Positions 10,861 through 53,003 of a DNA stretch of 64,000 bases are shown piece after piece. The notes beneath the pieces were generated by a model, which was not told the DNA's origin, did not search any database, and saw only the letters and a program-made list of their open reading frames with translations. The stretch's first letter is position 1; each line of letters starts with the position of its first letter. Origin of the DNA: Polytrichum commune (taxonomy: Eukaryota > Streptophyta > Polytrichopsida > Polytrichales > Polytrichaceae); NCBI GenBank assembly GCA_950295325.1, contig OX485803.1, positions 38,641,554 through 38,705,553 on the forward strand, read 5' to 3'. The position numbers were made by a program, and so were the translations under genes.

Positions 10861-11335
10861 GTTCAAGTGTGAACTCAAAGTAGTTAGAAAATTTGCTCTT
10901 GAAACAACGAACTTGATGCATAGTCTCTGATAACATCCTCCCTCAACCAACGGAGGAAACATGACTTGGCAAACACCAACGCCACAAAATCACACCTTAT
11001 AACACCAACAAAACAACAGTAAACGGCTGCCAGCTGCAGCTAGCTTTCTTTATTCGGTTTCTGACTACTATAGTGTCCATCCTCGAAAGGGGAGAGTAGT
11101 ATAGCCCCAATTTCCCTTTGTCCTGTGGGCATCGGGTTATTGGCATTACGAACGGACACTTTATTCACGCCGGCCCCTACCCCAGGGACTGGAGTTTCTA
11201 TCTATCTGACTTCACACTACACTCGAGGGTCCGTGACCACTTTACGTGATTTTGGGATGGCCTTTGGACACTCTCTTTTGGGCTCTCACAATTTCATGGT
11301 CACGGCTCTTGGCTCGTGTGTGAAGTAAGTGGCCC

Positions 11336-16488: not shown

Positions 16489-16578
16489 TTGTTTTGCACC
16501 AAAAGCAATAACAAAACAATAAAAACTCCCTTGAATAAACATACCAAATACCCTATCAAGCACAACAAAGAACACCAT

Positions 16579-17133
16579 ATGGCCTCGGCCTACCGGTCTC
16601 GCCATAAAATAGAACTAACAAGATATATACACTACCACTCCTTCAACCCCATCATCTACCCAATTACAAAACCTATACACCAACATACCAAACCCATACA
16701 CTACCTCTCCAAATACGCACAAAAAACAATACTTGCCCTACCCAATCTATTCACCACAAGTAAATATACCTTAATAAAGTATTATAAAATGATAAAGAGA
16801 AAACCAAAAGTAAAAAAATACCTATGATATCACTTCATCAATAAATTAACTCTATTACAATGTGGAGATATTGAATTTAATCCGGGACCGATGCCAAATA
16901 TACTACACACACACCCAACATACATACAAACGCATAACCACCCACCCCCACCCCATATGATATATGCCATCATTGTAACCATAAATCCCTCAATAAACAT
17001 ATGCAACAATATATTGGCTCAACCTAACGCCTATCACTTTAACATAGAAAGGACTAACACACTAATTAACAAGTTGGCTCACCTCACCAACCCTCCCGAA
17101 AAGGCATATCCTAACGCAACATCCATACACTAG
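16579..17133 (+). pseudogene. LINE N-terminal leader with 2A-like ribosome-skipping motif
   Basis: From the ATG at 16579 (MASAYRSRHKIEL...) one frame runs to 17133, broken by a single TGA at 16825-16827. At 16852-16890 the same frame reads LLQCGDIEFNPGP, a perfect match to the 2A core D(V/I)ExNPGP. In known 2A sequences the ribosome skips the final Gly-Pro bond, so an active ancestor would have released a ~103-residue leader and restarted at the Pro before the Met at 16891. The leader is basic and aromatic with no recognised domain. 2A motifs are known near the N termini of some APE-type LINEs of trypanosomes and animals. Confidence 0.85.
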
Positions 17134-17390
17134 AGTTATTGAAACCTACCAAGACATAATAGAACCTCCGAATTCAATACATAAAGAATTATACACTTTC
17201 ATATATAGTTTCGAAACACTCCCAACTCCAACTGTAATCCAAAGAAAATTTCCATTTTTACCAAATAAATTAATACACGAATCCCTCAGATGTTTTGAAA
17301 CACTAAATGGATATGCCCATCCACCCCCACTCCTAAATATACCCACCCAAACAACTCGAATAAATAACAACACCAATCAGGAAACAAACA

Positions 17391-18720
17391 CAATAACCTG
17401 GAATGCTTCATCACTTAATACAACCTTACCTAACTTACAAAGCCTCATTACCTACACTCAAATAAATACAACAATCATCACCATCCAAGAAACCAAGCTC
17501 ACAGCAACAAAATTCACGAAATATATCCAAAACTTATTTCTACAATACAAACTCATATTTAACAACACACACGCACTCACAAAATGTATCCATCAACAAA
17601 TGCCCTATACATCTGGAAGGGGCGGGTTGCTCACACTTATACACAACAAATATGCATTCCCCGGTAATATCACCAAAATCCCCACACCAGTAAACATTTC
17701 ACCGTACCTCCAAATAATACAAATAAACAACCAACCATTATAATCATGGCTAATCATCCACATGTACATGCCCACACACTTAGGGCCGCTTTACACCTAG
17801 AGGCCGGGCCAATTTCCCTTGAGGCCGATTGCACAAAATTTCAGCCTTTTTTGGGTTGGAGGCCGGCCTCTACTACACATTATAATAAGATTATACCGGG
17901 GGCCAATTTTCCCATATGTAAAGGCCCTCGGGCCAAGAAGCCAAGCTGATTCAAAAAAATTAGCCTAATCCAACGGATGTAGCATAATCTAAGATAGAGC
18001 CTTTAGATTCCACATAATCCAATGGATCTAGTTCACTTTAAAAAATTATACTTTATTTAAGAATATTTTTTTAGTGGAATATGACATTGGCCTCTAGGCC
18101 AAGAATTGGCCTTCCATTTTGGGTGCACCCAATTCAACGAGCTCGGGCCGTGTCATAACATACATTTTTTAATTTAAAAAATCATACCACCAAATCGGCC
18201 CGGCCTCTAGATGTAAAGGGGTTGGGGCCGATTTGAGCCTTTTGACCAATCACAAATGAGGATTTCAAGCCTCTTACACAACGAATTGGCCCGGCCTCTA
18301 AGTGTAAAGCGGCCCTTAGAAGATATTTGATTCATCCTTAACATAAAAACGACAATGACCAGTTAAATCAATGTACACCCATAACACATATACATCATGT
18401 GCAAAGACTTTAACCGAGACATTGCACTTATTGGTAGACAAAACGATAACCTCCACACACCACCACAAGAAGAAGATATACAATGGAGGACCTTTACTAC
18501 ATTCATGAATTTAGAATATATCCCAACAAACACCACATTCTCAAAACAAGGTGGTAATAACTATACTTCCACCAGCTTGATTGATGGTTTTTACATCAAC
18601 TCGCCATATAACAATAAATATTCTTCTACAACGAACACCCATATAGACCTAAATTCAGACCACTATCCAATTACCCTACATATACCATACAACACATTAC
18701 TAACAAGACTCATACTTCCC
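17391..18720 (+). pseudogene. LINE APE-type endonuclease domain, split by a MITE
   Basis: The N-terminal half, 17391-17775, shows TWNASSL, then IQETKL with the metal-binding Glu, and GRGGLLTLI. After the MITE (17783-18315) the domain resumes with KDFNRDIALIGRQN (GDFN motif, the Gly replaced by Lys), SLIDGFYINS and HIDLNSDHYPI, whose Ser-Asp-His is the catalytic end of the fold. This nuclease nicks target DNA to prime reverse transcription. It is dead here because of the insertion, frame changes and altered residues. Confidence 0.85.
17783..18315. mobile_element. GGGCC-TIR MITE nested in the LINE (PIF/Harbinger-like target)
   Basis: The ends are near-perfect ~30-base inverted repeats: the left starts GGGCCGCTTTACACCTAGAG and the right ends AGTGTAAAGCGGCCC. 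TTA flanks both sides (17780-17782, 18316-18318), and this can be read as CTTAG on both sides. It interrupts the APE coding region exactly, which proves it arrived after the LINE. TTA duplications and GG-starting TIRs are typical of PIF/Harbinger MITEs. No coding sequence. Confidence 0.88.
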
Positions 18721-19559
18721 AACAACATTACACAAACTAGGATCCTAAACCCAATACCACCTGAAAACCTCGAACAATTTAATATTAATTTTTCTGAAAA
18801 AACTCCATACAAATCAACGATTTAATCACTCTTTTTGAAAACTACGATCATCTTATAAATAACCAATGGCAAAATGCATGCGACTCACTTGACATCATAA
18901 TAAGAAAAAATTCACAAAACATAGAAGAAACATGTAGTGCAGCTCCAACACCACAACTTACAAACCATACGGCCCAACAAGGCAGCTTCTTACCACGTAA
19001 ACTAGCTAAACCATGGAAAAAACACCTAGCCACGTATCACCAAATTACGAAAACTATATATATTACCAAAAACGACCCGAACTGGCTTACACATCCAATA
19101 CTAAATGAAATATATAACCACCAACATGTACAAATTCCAACCCACCCACAACAAACACCTTACTAAACGAATGGATAAACGAAATAACAGCCATTGCAAA
19201 AATAGCCAAAAAACAAACATGAGCCATTATTACAAAATACACTAAAGAATGCATACTAAAAGCAATATCAAAATATAAACAACTCTATGAGAAAAGTCCT
19301 AAGAAAGTAAACATGAAAGTCTTCAGAAACTCTGAAACTTCATCCCTAGATTCTATCATTGATAGATAAAATAATATCTTAACTAATTCCGAAGACATCG
19401 CAAAAGAAATACACATACAACAATCCATTAATAACCATCCCACAGTTCTTACATGTGAACATCAAACAACACACCCACAACATTGTACGTGTAATGTACG
19501 ACAATACTCATGGTACGACCTCGATGGCTTCACCATAGACCGGCGTGGAGAACCTCAAA

Positions 19560-21145
19560 TTCCATTATATACATACTTCAATCCGGAAACATATGACTTA
19601 TGTCTAAAAAACCTAGGTAATAACAAAGCCCCTGGCCTAGACAGAATTCCCAATTCAATCCTAAAAAACATGCAACTACGTTTTTACAAACTATTGTTTT
19701 TATTCTTCAAACATCGCTATAAACAAAAATAAATTCCTACATCATAGAAAATGAGCCTCACAGTTTTACTTTCTAAGAAATGTAATCCATCACAACTTAC
19801 GAACCACAAACCTATTGCTCTAGCCAATATCATATATAAACTTTACACAAATACTTTGACATCCATCCTCTCGGCCTATAGAGAAACACACCAAATATTA
19901 CACAATAGCCAAGAATGATTCAGAGCAAAAAGATGAACATTCAGACAACTCCAAATACTTATTGCTGCATTGGAAGATGCAAGATTCACATACTATGATA
20001 TATACATTCTATACATAGACTTCAAAAATGCATTTGGCTCTATTGACCACACTAGACTCCTAGTCATATAGAAGGATCTTGGATACCCAAACGATGTCAT
20101 AAACCTAATTGGTAACATATACTCACAATTCACTATCACATTCATTGGATAACACTTTGGTAAAATACAACTCATTCCCATTCAAAGATGAACAATACAA
20201 GGAGACACCCTAAGCCCATACATATTCATCATATTCTTAGAATCCTTCATTAGGTGGTTACAACAAGGAAATAACGGATACACATTTGGAACATCCAAAG
20301 TACAAATCTCCTCAGCAGCATATGCTGACAACTTAGCAGCAATTGCCAACATATTAAAATCACTACAAGTACAAATCAACAAACTTGACAAATTTTGTGA
20401 ATGGGGTGACATGGATCTTGGAATTCCCAAATGCGTAGTCACTGGATGCCCGAACAAATCCAAAGTGAACCCCCTAGCATTCAAAACTCTAATTCAAGCT
20501 ACAAAAATAAACTACATGAACGAACATATACTAGTCTTGAGTCAAAACGAACCATACACATACCTGGGTATAAACCTCGCCCCCTCACTAAAATGGAAAA
20601 CACAAATACACACCACCACCACCAAAGTCATAAAACAATGCAAGGACCTTGTAGCTTGTCCAGCTCCTATGAAACAAAAAATTAATATGGCAGACACAGT
20701 TATACGTGCTGGAATCGCATACATCTTCTACGTTGTACCGTACTCCCTACCTGCCATAAAAAACCTTGACGAAAAGATTATAGCCCTCCACAAAACAATA
20801 TGTGGGCTACCAAAATGCACGTCAAACATAGCCACGCAACTCCATCATGACTTATTTGGAATAGAAGTTTTTTCACTAAAAAATGCCTACTTACGATGTA
20901 TAGGCGAACAACTACAACATGCCCTTAATGACACATGTAGACTTGGGAAAATCTACAACGGACTACTACAATTTATACTAGCAACATTTGGTGGCGCCCA
21001 AGAAATACCTCGTATCAAATATCACCATTGTGTCCGATCACCTATAACTAGAGCACTATTTCTACTTAAAAAAGAAGCCGGAGTTCACCTAAAAAGTATA
21101 ATGGACAACTTCATATTTAACACCTCCCCCTTTGAGAACGTCTGA
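19560..21145 (+). pseudogene. LINE reverse transcriptase domain
   Basis: Ordered RT motifs are visible: NNKAPGLDRIPNSIL near 19620; ILYIDFKNAFGSIDH near 20005 with the first catalytic Asp; IQGDTLSPYIF near 20195; and AYADNLAAI at 20318-20340, the catalytic box normally YADD. Here the second Asp is Asn (GAC to AAC), which should abolish activity. After the box an open frame continues for 244 residues (20411-21145) through PYTYLGINLAPSLKW and the thumb. Several stops sit where Trp would be expected (for example QE*FRAKR*TFRQLQ). Confidence 0.9.
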
Positions 21146-21163
21146 ATGAAATAAGCGCAAAAC

Positions 21164-22603
21164 ATGCATGGCCTAAATCGTAAAACTTCGCTTAAATTAC
21201 TACAAAAGCTACTATTGCACAATATAACTGAACTAAGGCAAATCACTCTACCCAATGGCCTTAATATGATGTGCCCAAATGATTTTAAAAACTATCATTC
21301 CAACCCTACCAAACTAATCAAAAGCGCACTAAACATTGCTCAACAACTATTATATCACCCCTCTTCCCCCCGGCAATGTCAACAACTATGCATGCACCAT
21401 CACTCCCAAAAAATCCTAAAAGACAACTACATCATAATAAACCACAACATTCTGCCCAGACAACCCGATCCTCCAATTCACCCCCCAAACCCACCTCACC
21501 CACACCACCCACCCCCACCAAGAGAAGTTCCTAAAGACCCTAGACAATTCCCTATCCACACAATCATTGACCATAAAAAACGACAATACACTACCTCCAA
21601 TGGAATAACGAAAAACGACACATCATATCTATGCCAATGGATAATAAGAAATAATAACACCTATAACAAATGGCGAACCCAAAGAGACTTATTCCCTTGG
21701 TACGACGCTAACACTTGTGCACATAATACCGGACTACTAACTCAATACTATACCAAAAGACAACACAAACACTTCTCGAACTTAATAAACGCACACTTTA
21801 CCACATAACAACAATGAGATACAAGATATGTTACCCCTGCAACAAGTATCCCATTGGCACATATTTCTATCGATGAATGTAACCCCGAAAGTTATATAGA
21901 AACCACCACCAATACTATCCAAACACACTTTGATATTGCCCACATATATGAAGACAATGGATGGCACCTCACCACCATCCCTAAAACTATACTACATTGG
22001 CTATGGAAACAATACCAACTCGCAAAAAACACCCCACACGGACTAGAACCACCTACACAATCATTTGAAACTGAAATGGTATGGTTATACCAAAGATACA
22101 AATACCGTATTCCTAAAAATGACCCCCTAAAACTAGCCCAATATACAATACCAACTCCAATATTAAACTTTCTCACTACATCATTCAACATCAGCCATTC
22201 ATATTTTTCATCCCCAATCACATGCCCTACACAACTCAATCAATTTTACTCTCCATTCTCACGAGATAAAATATTTGAATCCTTAGGGAAAGCCTTTGAC
22301 CATAAATGGAAAGGAATAGGCTATGCCCACCCCAATAATGCAACAGACCTACAAGAGGCTATACATTGGGCTCATCTTGCTGCCAAAAACGACTCAAGTA
22401 CCATCGCAATACTCATTTCACTTGATACAAATTGGTACCAAAACTTCAACCCACACTCCAGCCCATTCCCATACACACGTATTATCGCCCACTTTGTTGT
22501 AGATACTATCACATATGAAGAACCTACTATACCACTAGAACTTAACATGCCCATGAAAGAACTCTCTACGCTACAAATACTTTGCATACACCACCAAAAA
22601 TAA
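21164..22603 (+). pseudogene. LINE linker region with a possible chromodomain-like segment
   Basis: Two open frames, 21164-21808 and 21854-22603, lie between RT and RNase H. The first contains a proline-rich spacer (about 21470-21530), then IHTIIDHKKRQ, DTSYLCQWI and NKWRTQRDLFPW (21554-21704). The hydrophobic-IID-basic start and the YLxxW-W spacing recall a chromodomain, but I could not test this. The second frame has no recognised domain. Confidence 0.4.
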
Positions 22604-22834
22604 CTACATAGGAACCTATGAACATCTAAATCAACTCGCCCATATTATAAATAATCTCTCAATACCACAACTATATACACAAATTGCCACACATATCCCC
22701 CCCCCAACACACATGTCAATCCCAGCAAAAAGTGGTCCAAACTAACTTATCCCAATATCCCCACACTCAATGAAACACCTATGCCCCAACTACCGGCCTA
22801 CCAAACTAAGTTACCATTAAAATTTTATCCACAA

Positions 22835-23290
22835 TTCAATTATTACACTGATGGTTCATTTTAAAAACCTAAACTAATCTCCCCGGGAGTGTGGAGAAAA
22901 GAAACAGTAGGATATGGCATTTATAGCCCTAAAGGGCTTAGCATAGCCAAAAGACTACATGACTACCAGAATATCCTACGGGCAAAAATGATGGCCATCC
23001 ATAAAACACTATGAATTATCAATACCCTATATCCAAATGAACATGCATACATATTCACCGATAGCCTAAATGTACTATATCTACTAAACACACAAATTAA
23101 ACATCCCATACTACACAATAGTCACCCCGACCAAATCACACTTGCCTCCATGGTACAATTGCTCCAAAACCATTCCCAACCAACCACATTATACAAAGTT
23201 AAAGCACATGTTAACATAGACGGCAACGAACAAGCAAATAAATTAGCAAAAGAAGGACTGGACCTTACCCATAGAAGTGCCATACACATA
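22835..23290 (+). pseudogene. LINE ribonuclease H domain
   Basis: YYTDGSF opens the domain with its first catalytic Asp. RAKMMAIHKTL matches the second motif, but the catalytic Glu is Lys (AAA for GAA). YIFTDSLNVLYLL gives the third Asp. KVKAHVNIDGNEQANKLAKEG is the fourth motif, with Asn for the usual Asp. Two of the four catalytic acids are therefore lost, both by G-to-A changes. The domain would have degraded template RNA during cDNA synthesis. Confidence 0.85.
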
Positions 23291-23334
23291 TAGTAACACG
23301 CCCATGCCACACCTTACTACTACCAAAAAGACAA

Positions 23335-24345
23335 ATGGCCTCCATGATAGACACGCCAGACAAAGGCCCCGTTAGATTTCTAGAAAAACAAATCAAAAAA
23401 TGTGACATAATAAACAACTTAGAAACTATGGCCATACAAACCCCCAATATTTGTAAATGGACAAGCAATGAAGACATTGACAAAGAACTTTCCAATGAAT
23501 TTTGGAATAACCCTACTATTACGGACAAGCAAAATTCATGCCTTATCAAATTTCGCACTAGAACCTATATGGGCCAAGCCAGAAAACAAACTTTCTTTGG
23601 TAGACAAAGATTCCCTATCATCACATGTCCTATTTGTAATTCATACGAACCTGATACATGGCTACATGTACTACTCACATGTAGGCAACAACATATACAC
23701 TCACTACACGTTAAAAGACATAACAAAGAAGTATGGGAAATCAGAAAATTACTAATTTCTTCCGAAAAATCTCGATGCTACACTCTTATGAACGTTGGTA
23801 CCTTTAATGACAACCCCCAAAAAAACACCGTCCCTAACTGGCTATTACCCTGCACATGTAGAATCCAAAGATGCCACTGTAACTCTCGATTTAGACCCGA
23901 CATCCTTTGCATTAAAAGGGTTACCATATCAAAATGAACCCCCCGCAAACATAGACCAAACACTTACCATACAATTCATTGAATTCACATATTGTAATGA
24001 TAGATTCTCACTAGAAACACTAGAAACTGAAGCCAACAAATACAAACCACTGATAGAAAACATTGTTGCTTTAGGCTGGAAAATTGATATGCTCATTGTT
24101 ATTATAGCAAGCGCCAGAGCCGCAACACACATTCCATCAATGAAACTACTTGAAGACAAATTTAAACTACCTATGTCATCCATCCGAAATACATTCAAAA
24201 ACATCAATACCATTGCCATACAATACGCCATGTCCATCCTCCTCCACAAAAGAAAACTAGAAAACCACCAACCTCTACCTCAAATACAAGACCCCCTAGT
24301 CGTACCAAAGTTATATTTGAAAATCATCATCTCCACACAACACTG
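23335..24345 (+). pseudogene. LINE C-terminal CCHC knuckle and PD-(D/E)XK-like nuclease domain
   Basis: At 23626-23682 the frame reads CPICNSYEPDTWLHVLLTC, a C-x2-C-x9-H-x4-C knuckle. Further on come RPDIL (23893 onward), FIEFTYCNDRF, then ETEANKYKPLIENI, GWKIDMLIVIIASARAATH and a helical tail to 24345. This order (zinc knuckle, R/K-PD, acidic residue on a strand, K-Y helix, hydrophobic strand) is that of restriction-like endonucleases of R2-type and dual-endonuclease LINEs. A frameshift separates RPDIL from FIEFTY. The assignment is inferred from pattern alone. Confidence 0.55.
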
Positions 24346-24429
24346 ATGTCTCAACTTCGCACAAAACAAACCTACACCGATTAACCCTTATATATATATA
24401 TGTATATATATGTACTCTATTCTTGTTAC

Positions 24430-24584
24430 TGGTTACTTGTGACTATAGTGTCTACTCTGGAAAGGGGGAAGTAGTTCTTTACTTCTATTCTTATGTCCCG
24501 TGGACATAGAGGTCTAGGGGTGGAATGAACAGACACTTCATTCACGTTGGTCCCTACCCGGGGATCGAAGTTTCTTCTCTTCTC
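24430..24584 (+). repeat. LINE 3' tail shared with SINEs
   Basis: The last ~150 bases of the LINE, from ACTATAGTGTCTACTCTGGA to the TTCTTCTCTTCTC end, correspond segment by segment to the 3' parts of 11071-11206, 41446-41588 and 52851-53003 and to the complement of 50843-50945. Shared blocks are TATAGTGYCYAYYCT, GAAAGGGGRRAGTAGT, GGACACTTYATTCACG and GAAGTTTCT. Such a common tail is what LINE enzymes use to recognise SINE RNA. Confidence 0.75.
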
Positions 24585-24596
24585 TTGTTTTGCACC

Positions 24597-39418: not shown

Positions 39419-42400
39419 TTATTTCTTCTTCTTCTTTTTGGCCTCAGCTAATCGTTTCTTCTTGAGTTTCTTGAGAACTTTCCTGTAAATCCTGCGAACC
39501 AGATATCCCTTCCATATTCTTTGGATCTTCATCACTGACTTCAAGCTCAACTCCATTTTCCCTTGGTTTGCATAGAAATACTCTAGGTCCTTTCTAGCCT
39601 TCTCTTCTGCTGCAGCTATGTCAGCCATCTCTTTCAAGTATCTGCAAAACTCAAAGAGTGGGCATGAGGTGATGATCAACGATTTGAAAAGACAGGAAAA
39701 GAAACATGGGTGTCTTTACACCGATGTGAATTTGAGCTAGAGTGTACATGGGAGACTTGGGTAGTAGAGTGGCACTATAGGGTTAGTTCTTATTTAATCG
39801 GGGAAGGCGGGCTCAAGTAGACATGTAGGATCATAACAATTATTGCTTCTATAATACACATTTGATGTTCATGTCTCAATTGTGACTTATGCGTTTAGTT
39901 AGGTTTCGTATGGCGGCAATCTACTGGTAGTATTTAGTGAAAGAATATGTCAGGATCAAGTTCCTTCTATCTTCTAGCTAAGATTGGTGGTTTTTATTCT
40001 ATATAATACATAAATTATTCTATGTTGTTATTTGATAGGTGGGCCAAAATCTCTCAAGAGAAAATTAAGAAATTGATGGACACACTGTGGATAAATCCAA
40101 GCAGCAAGTGAGGCTTGTGGTTGCCACCAAAGCTCAATTCCCCCTACCATATTAGTGCATACCCAACTATGGTGGGAATTTCTAGGTAAACTATGCACCC
40201 TAGTTGATCATGTGGGGACGTAAAAGTCACCTTTTTAGGGGAAGATAGGGAAGGCAAGATGTGCTAAAGAAAATGATGGTGTTCACCCCTAACAAAAGTC
40301 ACTACTTGATTAGCCATGTTGTCCAATGAACAAACATTGTTAATACATGTTGGTCCTCAAAGATTTGAATTCTTCTTCTTCTTCTAATTTCAAGTATAGA
40401 TTAAGACATTGCATAACACCAAAAAGATGGTATTCTCATTGAGGTTATTCAAAGTGAAGGCTATGAGACCATACGCGGGTTCAATATTTGCAATCTCCAA
40501 TTGTTTGAGCTTAATTTGAAGCTCCATCCTTTCAATGGACCAATCCAAGCATTGGACATCGTTGTCATGGTTTGTTGTTAAATCCAAAACCTCCTCCCTT
40601 AATGCCATGTTTTGTTTTGCCATGTATTCCATCACTGCAGTATGCACTTTTTTCTCCCTCTACAAACACATTTCCATTCAGTATTTGTTAGCGCATACAT
40701 GGTAGACACAAGGATACGGTCCTCAAACAAACAATGACATTCAATGATTTCTAAAATATAGATACTTATTCAAGTTTACAATGCACCTACTTGGCATGAC
40801 ATCAGTCAAAGTCTATGAGCCCGAGGGGTGGATTCTTCATATAATGTAAAAACTAACGTGAGTGTAAGAAGGGGTCTTATTTGAGGCATTGATGTACATA
40901 GTATACATAAAGGAGAGGTATTTATTTTCTCTAGTGTGTACATTTAGAAAGACTATTATGAATTTTGAAGTAAAGGTAAATGTACAAAATGGGGCCCTAA
41001 GGTTTAGAGAACAATTTCACAATGAATGTGTTAGTTTCATCCAATTCACATTTTCATTCATTATTGTCATATGGTAATAGTCCTTAATGACTACCTTGTT
41101 CATTCTTGTTGGGATTTACATTTGAATTCTAAGTTCTACAAATTGGAGGCTCTTGGAGTGCTCATGAGCTCCCTTGAGTTTTGCTCTTTGGATGGTGACT
41201 AATATATTGTGCTCCTGAGGCACCACGGGCCTTGGCTTGGTGGTTAGGGCTCATGGCCCCCAATGAGGAGGTTGTGGGTTCTATTCCCCATGCCGGCGTG
41301 GTGCTCACCACCTTAGTCCACCCAACTATGGTGGGAGGTCCTTGGACCTTGTTGTATGGGTACCTCAAAGCCCTTTGGGGGGATACCATGTCTGGTATCT
41401 TCAAGGCACTAGTGGCTAGCTAGGAACTAGTATAGTGTGCCACTATAGTGCCCATCCTCGAAAGGGGAGAGTAGTATTGCCCCAATGTCCCCTTGTCCAG
41501 TGGGCATCAGGTCATTGGCATTACGAATGGACACTTTATTCACGCCGGCCCCTTAAAAGGGACTGGAGTTTCTATCTATCTATCTATCTTGTGCTCCTGT
41601 CTTTGTTTGTTTGATGCAATCATTGAGTTACATGTCATGAATGTAAGAACTTTCAATGACTTTCTCATTGGAAAGTGAAAGTGGATTTTATAAGTAATAA
41701 AGACCTATTTAATTCATGATTTTTATCTTGTATTTGTAGTAGATGCATTTATTACACTAAATTCAAAAGTTGAACACAAATACACGAGGCCATTTCCTAG
41801 CATGTTGTTAATATGTATACACTTATTTTTTCTTTATAAACTTCTTGTATGTAAAGGGGTTTAATTTCCTAATGACCCACGCATGTCATTTAGGTTTCCA
41901 ATGAAGTGTCCCCTCCCCGCCCCCCCCCCCCCAAACGCTTGCATGTTTATGAGCACCGCTTCAACAATGCAAAGGATAGTCACCTTGACTCCAACAATAG
42001 CAAGTTAAACCTCGTATTTGCATTTGTTTGTGCCAACATATGCTAACAAGTTTATGAGTAGATGGGCTTAAGCAAAGCAAACCAACATCGATGTCCATTT
42101 GAAGCTAATCCACCTCCAAAAATAGATAAATTGTGTGATTGTGTAAGAACCCATTGGCATGCATACCGCCCATATTGCACCAATTTCAAAGCAAGTAAGG
42201 TACGTATATCCAAAACAATATCATGTATCATAATAACTATGGTTTTGGGAGCTTTGAATGTATGATGGATGATACATATTGTTAGTTATAGGATTTGTGT
42301 TGGTCTTGGATTTGCCTATCTTGGGTCGCATAAGTTATGATCATTTTCTCACATCATGGTATGATTGAATTGAGCATTGGCGGCTCGCTAGAACACTTTT

Positions 42401-47960: not shown

Positions 47961-50842
47961 TTATATGAGTGGGGAAGGGAAGTGAAGTCACAAGGTGGTG
48001 TCCCAAGACTTCCCCCACTCCTAGGACTAGCGTGTCTAGTCCTAGTGAAGCCATTTGGACTCCTTAGCAATCCCAACTGGTAATTAAGGGCATTTCCCAA
48101 ACTCTTGAGAGAGGATCCAAGGCTAGTGAATGGTAATGATAGCTTGCAGGGAGTTCAAGCCACGACCCCAAGACCATGAGTCAAGTGACTCCTCACTCAA
48201 ACCCATATTAGCACTGGGGTCCGAGGTACCTCGTAGCGGAGTGTATTCCACGTGGTTAGGTTTATTGACATAAATGAGATTACTTCATGCGTGGCCTTGG
48301 TTATGCATAGTTTTAGTGGCATCGTGCATCCATTGAATCCTACTTGATGGTTGCCATTGTTACACAACGAGCTACCTTTGAAATAAGTGTATGTTTGGGT
48401 TATGACACTTATCTAAGTGAATTGGAAATTTTACAAGCAACCATCATGGAAACCCAATAGCTCGTCCTCGAGGGAGATAAGTGCATGATGGTTTGCATGT
48501 GTCTGATTAAGATGGTCACCTTTGAAAGGAGGCACTTTGATTTTATGATGCCACACTTTGGAATTATATATAGAGTTAGACCAACTTGAAGATGAAGCAA
48601 CATCGTAGTTGATGTTGGTAAGAACATTGAAGTCCTCTCTCTTTGGAATAGGAAGAATCGCATCATACTATACTCACATTGACATATGTAGTTCTATAAG
48701 TTGAGCAACCCACACAAGTCATGCAAATTCTAGTTGACTAGCTCTACTTTGTTCTTAATCAAGTTTCACAATACAACAATATAATTATCTATTTACATAA
48801 ATAAAACACTTTCAAGTTCTATAACACTAATAAGAATACATTCTATGATCGTCAAACCCACCAAGGAAGGCGTGTGAGAACTCTTAAAGCTCGGTATATA
48901 TGACTTGCATGTGACTCAAAGTGAGAGACAACCAACCTTATGCAATATGATTGTGTCTTGCAAACGAGTGTATTTTGGCATGCATTGTTTGTCCTAACCT
49001 CCATAACCTTCCCATGAGTAGTTGTAAACTAGAAGTTTCTAGTAGTTGAGTATTAAAAAGAACACTTGAGCACAAATTTGGGACACGTTGAAATTAAAAT
49101 TACATGTGATCTATCAGTGGTTCTTCTAATGAAAATGATAGAATAATCACATTCAACATGGAGTGATATCTTTTTGTTGTGGCATGTATGTTGTTGTGTA
49201 ATTTGTGAGAGATACAAATCCACACTAATTCTTGGACCCACATGGCTTCTCAATGTATGTAGAATTAGGGTTCCCATCATAGGATTTTAGCCCTCTCCCC
49301 ATTGAAAGTGGCTTTCAATCTCTCATATGCAACACTTGTTATTTTTGGACAAGTGTTTTTTCTTTAATTAAAGAAATCATCCTAAATCCTAACTTAATTT
49401 GGCTTAGTGGAAATTTTGGTAGTTTTGTGGGAAATCGGTGCTTGATCTTGATTTCATTTTGAGAAGAAAAAAAAAGACTCTTAGCAATATCATTGCATCA
49501 ACCGTTTCTAACAAATTTCATCAAACTATGGACCTATGGTTCAATAACATTCTCATGTAATGGCATCAGAGCTAAACTTTTGCATGGTCAACATATACAT
49601 GAACATGACCTAGTGAACATACCCTTTATCCTTTCAAGTTTGTGATCATGTATAATAGTTTTCTTGGGTACCCCTACGTGTGTTGATGAATTATCTTTGT
49701 TTCTAATTTTGATGTCAAATAATATAGCACCCTAAGAAACGAGATGATTGTCATGCAGTAGTTACACTATTAACACTTATTTGTATGGCTCAATATAGTT
49801 ATGCCATACCATGATGAGACTAGTCAATGTGATTTTGCTTAACCCATGTTGTTTTTAGTATTGTATGTTCAAAAGTAAGACTATGGGATCAATATTTCTT
49901 ACATGAACATGAGATGTTGTGGGTTGAAAATATACAATATCAATAATTGATTCAAAACATCAGTACATCTTTATTTATTTTTATCACATCATCATTTGAT
50001 ATTTGAATATTAATAAGTCGTTGATTCTTAAGCCACTCTAATTTTCAATCCCGCACATAAAAAATACAATGGGCCACCTAGTCCTCAACCCACACTAACT
50101 TCAAACCCACATTAATAGATGTACACGGTGCAATTAGTCTAAGTTATACAATTGAAGATCAAGATTGGGTTGCGTGTTGGATCAAAGGACCATGAACATT
50201 ATAGTTCCACATCATACATATACTGTATTTTTGCATTCCTTTTTATTCCATGTCATTGGCATTCATCCTTCAATCACTAGGATAACATACTATATCATTT
50301 CAAAATGTCTTGGTCTTCCTTGAGCAAGATGTATCTAGCTATATATATGTATTTCCATTCATACCATTGCATATATATACAGAATTTGTGTGTGTGAAAA
50401 AAAAAGAGGCAACACATAGTCAAGACACGATGACCTACCCCACACATTGATCTGTATATCCTTTTATTCGAGGAGGAGGCTTATAAGCCTTTCCCGAAAT
50501 GCAGGCATGTGAGGCGGCCACGTCACTTCAACCACGTTAGGATTAGGGTTAGGGTTAGATTGTGTTTTGGAGATTTTGGAGCCATCAATCTCATTATTTA
50601 TTTATCATGGGTACATGGAACAAGCTAAAAGATAATAAGAGGTGGTGTGGAGAGGTACAAAACATCACTTAGCAATGACATTATGTTTATGGAGCATGGA
50701 AATATAATTTGTAGATTCACAAATATGTGACTCTCTCGATCCGAATCTCATGGTCCACCTACTAAGTTCGGGATACTAATCGACAGTCCAATTGCTTCAT
50801 GGGGACAACTTTGGGGAAAGAGTATGTGCATGCTTTATAAAT
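47961..50842. other. Gene-free AT-rich intergenic DNA
   Basis: Nearly 2.9 kb without recognisable coding sequence. At 49559-49571 ATGGCATCAGAGC resembles the initiator-tRNA primer-binding site of plant LTR retrotransposons (one mismatch to the usual 12-mer), but no LTR pair or gag/pol could be found. Confidence 0.5.
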
Positions 50843-50945
50843 GGAGAGAAGAAACTTCGGTCCCTAGAAAGGGACCGACGTGAATGAAGTGTCTGTTCGT
50901 TCCACCCCTAGACCTATGTCCACAGGACATAAGAATAGATAAACG
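50843..50945 (-). mobile_element. 5'-truncated LINE-tail fragment
   Basis: The reverse complement reads TCTATTCTTATGTCCTGTGG, then ACAGACACTTCATTCACGTC and GACCGAAGTTTCTTCTCTCC, matching the LINE 3' end at 24480-24584 more closely than the SINE version. It is a short truncated copy lying next to the pogo-like element. Confidence 0.7.
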
Positions 50946-52842: not shown

Positions 52843-53003
52843 GGTCACTAAAGTGTCTATTCTCGACATGGGAGGGTCATTTTGTTCCAATGACCCTTTG
52901 TTCCATGGGCACTGGGTCACTGGGTCATTAACAACACGAACAAAACATTTTATTCATGCCGGCCTTGAAAGAGGTCCGGAGTTTCTATTTATTTATTTAT
53001 CTT
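52843..53003 (+). mobile_element. 5'-truncated SINE/LINE-tail insertion
   Basis: A 161-bp insert flanked by the 11-bp duplication TCACATGAGTT (52832-52842 and 53004-53014). It contains only the shared 3' tail (TAAAGTGTCTATTCTCGACA, then TTTATTCATGCCGGCC and GGAGTTTCTATTTATTTATT), so reverse transcription stopped early. It sits in a diverged unit of the 317-bp tandem repeat. Confidence 0.85.

Follow-up and report, generated by a model that had tools for sequence, protein, structure and literature searches.

Our analysis of a 64,000-nucleotide stretch of Polytrichum commune DNA (the window) and of the genome that contains it demonstrates that a plant-lineage genome contains an abundant family of LINEs in which an in-frame 2A motif is conserved. 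The motif under study, at positions 16852-16890 of the window, is probably the decayed remnant of a StopGo/2A element that served to free a polyprotein, comprising an APE endonuclease, a reverse transcriptase (RT), a PCIF1-like domain and an RNase H, from an expendable leader. LINEs that bear a 2A are already known, and it is the host lineage and the order of the domains that look new.

Bases 16852-16890 read CTATTACAATGTGGAGATATTGAATTTAATCCGGGACCG and translate as LLQCGDIEFNPGP, i.e., a full match to the core D(V/I)ExNPGP, as the initial annotation of this stretch had claimed, and this is the only occurrence of NPGP in the six frames of the window. The same annotation placed the motif in frame with the ATG at 16579 save for one TGA, and we find precisely this, with the TGA located at 16825-16827. 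Its estimate that the motif lies about 100 codons into the element needs correction, since the element begins at 16501, after the target-site duplication, and the 13-residue motif therefore begins 117 codons into the window copy. This copy does not have in-frame coding on both sides of the motif, with the TGA lying between the ATG and the motif and a frame change following it, and it cannot itself skip, because of that TGA before the motif and the many stops and shifts after it. The features that we assign to this copy are as follows:

16489-16500, plus strand: 5' target-site duplication TTGTTTTGCACC, a perfect 12-bp repeat with 24585-24596.
16501-24584, plus strand: decayed, 5'-truncated copy of the 2A-bearing LINE, bounded by the duplication and matching in pieces the ORF2 of a related copy, L035.
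16579-16887, plus strand: leader frame of 103 codons, one of them the TGA, running from the ATG to the G of NPG; a homologous leader is present in relatives.
16852-16890, plus strand: 2A peptide LLQCGDIEFNPG/P, with the predicted skipped bond between 16887 and 16888; kept in relatives.
16891-17398, plus strand: ORF2 N-terminal region after the 2A, beginning MPNILHTHP; it then lacks about 40 residues that the relatives have, after which the frame changes.
17399-17782, plus strand: APE endonuclease, first part, from the alignment to L035.
17783-18315, no strand assigned: nested 533-bp TIR element with a TTA duplication, splitting the APE domain; from the inverted repeat pair and the flanks.
18316-18801, plus strand: APE endonuclease, second part (DGFYI...SDHYP), from tblastn with L035 and translation.
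19781-20576 (start approximate), plus strand: RT core, with stops; PF00078 in the open part from 20192, and tblastn with L035.
22046-22339, plus strand: PCIF1-like domain; Pfam match at 22046-22321 (PF12237, E 4.8e-9), followed by YAHPNN where PCIF1 has NPPF.
22832-23254 (ends approximate), plus strand: RNase H region, broken by stops; PF00075 matches L035 (E 4.8e-13) and was mapped by tblastn.
23626-23682, plus strand: CCHC-type cluster CPICNSYEPDTWLHVLLTC, by eye, with a similar cluster in L035 and L047.
24425-24584, plus strand: 3' tail common to other copies; the window copy ends in TTCTTCTCTTCTC.
24585-24596, plus strand: 3' target-site duplication TTGTTTTGCACC, a perfect 12-bp repeat with 16489-16500.

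Target-site duplication and 5' truncation are found in the window copy as in APE-type non-LTR retrotransposons. Using tblastn with the 2,341-residue ORF2 of L035, we observe that the window copy covers residues 51-2340 (counted after the 2A) at 59-75% amino-acid identity, in pieces and with several frame changes; the match opens with residue 51 at position 16894 and continues in a different frame at 17078. The ORF2 alignment halts at 17782 and restarts at 18316, around the nested TIR element, which we take to be Harbinger-like and in which a related end unit is present again internally at 18192-18221. The RT core residues are YADN in the window copy versus YADD in L035. No ORF1 match was found in the window, and the copy is not full length, its start falling inside the spacer between ORF1 and ORF2 of its relatives. 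An A/C-rich strand skew begins at the 5' border of the element and stops near 24400, ahead of the 3' tail. Three related copies whose 3' ends were read (L035, L044 and L047) all end in (TATC)n, with L035 containing an extra A-run directly after the ORF2 stop and ahead of the tail. In the 3' UTR of these copies, from the ORF2 stop to the tail, the other strand appears tRNA-like by eye (GGTTCGATTCC); ARAGORN identified no tRNA gene in L035, L044, L047 or the window.

The same LINE tail is present in short pieces elsewhere in the window, at 52843-53003, 10932-11207 and 50837-50930 (minus strand), the first of these being a 161-bp insertion with an 11-bp duplication (TCACATGAGTT). A likely SINE at 41218-41588, with a tRNA-like head and A- and B-box-like stretches recognized by eye, is flanked by an 11-bp duplication (TTGTGCTCCTG) at 41207 and 41589, and since its 3' tail is 88.5% identical to the LINE tail, we suggest that the 2A LINE mobilises this candidate.

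Our search of the 407.8-Mb genome identified 267 exact DIExNPGP sites and 5 DVExNPGP sites, with the reversed pattern giving 0 in each case. Of the former, 100 were used for comparison; of the latter, 3 were examined, and all 3 are located in a LINE subfamily like copies L040/L041. Given a broken window copy on a strand of unusual composition, the motif could be regarded as a chance match in an A/C-rich decayed repeat, but an order-2 Markov model of the window gives an expectation for D(V/I)ExNPGP of 3.9e-5 in the window and, with the window composition carried over, of 0.25 in the genome, where 272 sites are found. The genome count and the Markov estimate rule out chance, which we regard as vanishingly improbable.

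To avoid circularity, relatives were also sought using the 199 residues that follow the 2A in L035, i.e., with the motif left out. This search gave 689 first-look candidates, of which 150 were scored and listed; 63 of these 150 are on contigs C1 (of which the window is a part) and C2, and 59 were compared, the other 4 lying beyond the listed motif range. DIExNPGP is present before ORF2 in 45 of the 59 copies (41 at the exact in-frame spacing and 4 displaced by 1-4 nt), and NPGP is kept in 51 of 59. Copies that lack NPGP, or that carry it out of frame, were the outcome that the initial annotation had named as counting against its reading, and the survey went the other way. The 14 copies without an exact DIExNPGP comprise one NIE..NPGP, four DIK..NPGP, one AIE..NPGP, five broken cores (NRGP, NPRP, NP-stop-P, HPGP and KPGP) and three with no readable 2A (L052, L059 and L063, the last ending in EPHPGP after unrelated sequence). 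Six further copies on contigs C3-C7, picked for a high score or a long frame, contain one DIE, four DIK and one DIELNLGP, so that motifs were read in 65 of the 150. A tree was built from 28 copies, 7 short rows having been removed from a set of 35 chosen for bearing the motif; it contains deep branches, for example L040/L041 versus the rest, and many weakly supported forks. No relatives outside this genome were confirmed among the viral contigs and prokaryote contigs scanned.

Examination of 20 ten-kb stretches around motif sites showed that 2, L035 and L047, contain a frame running through the 2A to the end of ORF2. This frame is 2,625 codons long in L035 and 2,919 in L047 (2,348 and 2,341 codons, respectively, from the D of the motif onward), and in the other 18 stretches a stop occurs at most 915 codons after the motif. 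Both copies are open on both sides of the motif, which places the 2A core in frame with both flanking segments, as had been anticipated for other copies of the element. An open frame of at least 2,000 codons is present in 7 of the 150 matches listed, three of them with DIE (L035, L047 and L065), three with DIK (DIKPNPGP) and one with the broken core DIELNLGP (L069). The variant KGGDIKPNPGP, in which lysine replaces the glutamate of the 2A core, is found in six copies (L053, L054, L066, L067, L068 and L070) with listed frames of 1,076 to 2,924 codons, and DIK is found on other backgrounds in L056 and L058.

In view of the DIK and broken-core copies, an ancestral 2A could be disappearing, with recently active DIK subfamilies making a fused protein and the DIE copies being mostly relics. 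The long frames of the six KGGDIKPNPGP copies, the two further DIK copies and L069, where a long frame is combined with a broken core, are as this account would have it, and the core changes reported as active in the available text of PMC12846837 are H at p14 and H at p16, with K at p14 not named there. Long-open DIE copies nevertheless exist, and K at p14 may itself be active; we consider such loss unlikely. A broader proposal, which we put forward tentatively, is that natural StopGo decoding occurs genome-wide in this plant-lineage organism, carried by a clade of LINEs with a PCIF1-like domain that stands outside plant L1 and RTE, and that the shift of the core to DIK provides a series from working to altered motifs within long-open elements.

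The organisation of the element was read from the open relatives. In L047, an APE endonuclease and an RT are present in one ORF, as in APE-type non-LTR retrotransposons, and Pfam recognizes RT (PF00078), RNase H, PCIF1_WW and the endonuclease families PF03372 and PF14529. In L035, Pfam recognizes RT (PF00078), RNase H and PCIF1_WW and, at E 1, none of the endonuclease families; NCBIfam gives a weak exonuclease III match below the cut-off. In the open stretches of the window copy, Pfam recognizes RT and PCIF1_WW. The 2A is located between an N-terminal leader and the APE domain, as in 2A-bearing LINEs. Against PDB, the RT of L035 matches R2 proteins best (106 bits) and 8c8j, which we take to be human L1 ORF2p, at 62 bits, these being match scores and carrying no clade assignment.

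The PCIF1-like domain sits between RT and RNase H, with PF12237 E-values as low as 2.2e-12 (L047), and for the window copy the match to PDB 6irx is weak (E 0.073). The position of NPPF, a motif that is presumably catalytic in PCIF1, reads HPNN, HPHN or HPPN in the LINE copies (window, L035 and L047), and because of this replacement the domain may be inactive or altered. No retrotransposon with PCIF1 was seen among the literature matches listed, and the term "PCIF" is absent from the available part of PMC6338049, which concerns accessory domains in retrotransposons.

Upstream of the 2A frame, L035 contains an ORF1 of 539 residues, counted from the ATG taken as its start, and its end shares a 22-nt overlap with the beginning of the open frame of ORF2. 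By eye, and in L035 only, no canonical slippery site was seen at this overlap, and Rfam, scanned with bases 1-700 of L035, yielded no match. Four ATGs are present in L035 between the ORF1 stop and the 2A, and three of them, including the first, are in the 2A frame, a placement that would suit re-initiation once ORF1 has been translated. The corresponding first ATG of L047 is outside the 2A frame, and there is no conserved start codon for the leader. The initial annotation had envisaged a small basic leader. A leader frame is indeed present, but in L035 it is longer, running to 235 residues when counted up to NPG from the first ATG that follows the ORF1 stop. Its basic make-up derives in part from the A/C-rich strand, as basicity is just as high in one of the two other frames. 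The L035 leader also contains the related units TASAYRPRH...PNLFT and MASAYRPRH...PNLFT, which appear to have arisen by internal duplication; a single unit is present in the window copy. Upstream of the 2A, many copies contain a GC-rich motif (core CTCGGCCTACCGGCCTCG), in the window from 16579, on a strand that is otherwise G-poor; since it recurs in different frames, with two or three occurrences in some copies, a nucleic-acid signal is more probable than a conserved peptide.

The leader, though it stays open in the 2A frame, is under weak selection; selection becomes strong at the 2A and remains so beyond it. From 16 related copies, with 105 of the 120 pairs retained by a divergence filter, we obtained pN/pS values of 0.82, 0.69, 1.11, 0.50 and 0.47 in five leader windows, 0.17 in the interval from -10 to +10 codons around the motif, and 0.17-0.35 over the seven windows that follow. 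In two of the five leader windows, the pN/pS of another frame is below that of the 2A frame, so that protein-level selection on the leader is not established, and with values of 0.47-1.11 we reject strong protein selection throughout it. Over the 100 codons upstream of the motif in 35 copies, there are 36 stops in the 2A frame (frame 0), 245 in frame 1 and 209 in frame 2, and a shortage of stops in frame 0 can be seen from about -240 codons onward. Across 15 representatives, the leader has a median identity of 0.30, compared with 0.65 for the 2A (where the core was pre-selected) and 0.60 for the 30 codons after it. The fixed letters of the core are circular as evidence, because the 35 copies were chosen by the motif, but the free sites, the flanks and the stops are not; among these motif-selected copies p15 is variable (T, P, S, L, A and others).

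These data bear on a further alternative, namely that DIExNPGP causes no skipping and is kept for folding, as an ordinary structural motif within the N-terminal domain of ORF2. The residues P, N, I, L, H and P shortly after the motif are also highly conserved, with pN/pS as low there as at the motif, and the DIK copies retain NPGP without the glutamate, both of which a folding role would accommodate. Constraint, however, begins at the L-rich stretch, the fixed and free sites fit the 2A grammar (a free p15, V/I exchange, and an L-rich stretch followed by C/S-G), and the preceding leader diverges freely yet stays open in the 2A frame, and we judge a purely structural role to be decidedly improbable. 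By eye, the L-rich stretch and the C/S-G that follows it resemble motifs 2 and 6 of PMC12846837, the available text of which reports an L-rich (A/S/C)G upstream class for p12=D in viral StopGo and describes number 6, of its two L-rich motifs, as assayed and active.

Our favoured reading, StopGo/2A release of the polyprotein, predicts the following course in open copies. A ribosome would start upstream in the 2A frame and make the leader; at LL-x-(C/S)-G-D-I-E-x-N-P-G/P, it would fail to join G to P and would release the leader; and translation would then resume to give an enzyme polyprotein starting P-M-P-N-I-L and containing the APE endonuclease, RT, PCIF1-like domain, RNase H and CCHC cluster. 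The sequence of the leader would be of little weight and a freed, defined N terminus of much, and we infer that this N terminus is the probable target of selection. Re-initiation after ORF1 would be one way for translation of ORF2 to start, judging from the sequence of L035.

The plant-lineage host is borne out by LEAFY-family and rbcL matches in the genome. SAM_LFY (PF01698) has 4 matches in the genome versus none in 14 control genomes, a weak control in that those named are prokaryotes, and RuBisCO_large has a full match on a 146,561-base contig. To our knowledge, LEAFY is confined to the plant lineage. According to the available parts of the sources, a 2026 survey found no evidence for natural use of StopGo by plant viruses and reports StopGo motifs only very rarely in cellular coding sequences (PMC12846837), and an N-terminal 2A is functional in plant cells (PMC4981915). 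Hundreds of 2A sites in one plant-lineage LINE family, some of them in very long frames, would constitute a natural plant-side source of 2A sequences; the family raises the questions of why LINEs gain a 2A and what role the freed leader or N terminus has, and the DIK copies offer a natural setting for testing the need for glutamate in the 2A core.

No plant LINE with a 2A was seen among the matches listed from an open-access collection in which the most relevant papers are missing. Known 2A-bearing APE-type non-LTR retrotransposons are L1Tc of Trypanosoma cruzi and elements of sea urchin and other animals (Heras 2006 and Odon 2013, as cited in PMC4981915 and PMC11512398). The L1Tc and sea-urchin elements likewise have the 2A in frame and N-terminal to an APE-RT polyprotein; the Polytrichum LINE differs, as far as the animal elements are known, in its plant-lineage host, in a separate ORF1 before the 2A frame, in the PCIF1-like domain between RT and RNase H, and in a 2A that ends a long, fast-changing leader. 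With viral StopGo/2A, as described in the accessible sections of PMC12846837, it shares the core D(V/I)ExNPGP, the usage at p15 and the L-rich upstream class, and it differs in its retrotransposon setting and in the copies with K at p14, which is outside the active set published there. The N-terminal 2A signal sequences of sea-urchin NLR proteins (PMC4981915, available part) are similar in that a 2A is located near the start of a long protein and releases a leader, but the LINE leader is much longer than a 2A of 26 residues. Plant LINEs are given as L1 and RTE in the available text of PMC9033089, and these land-plant elements likewise have an endonuclease, an RT and often an RNase H, with two ORFs in L1; they end in (A)n or (GTT)n, whereas L035, L044 and L047 have neither end and carry (TATC)n, and the Polytrichum family is further set apart by its 2A and its PCIF1-like domain.
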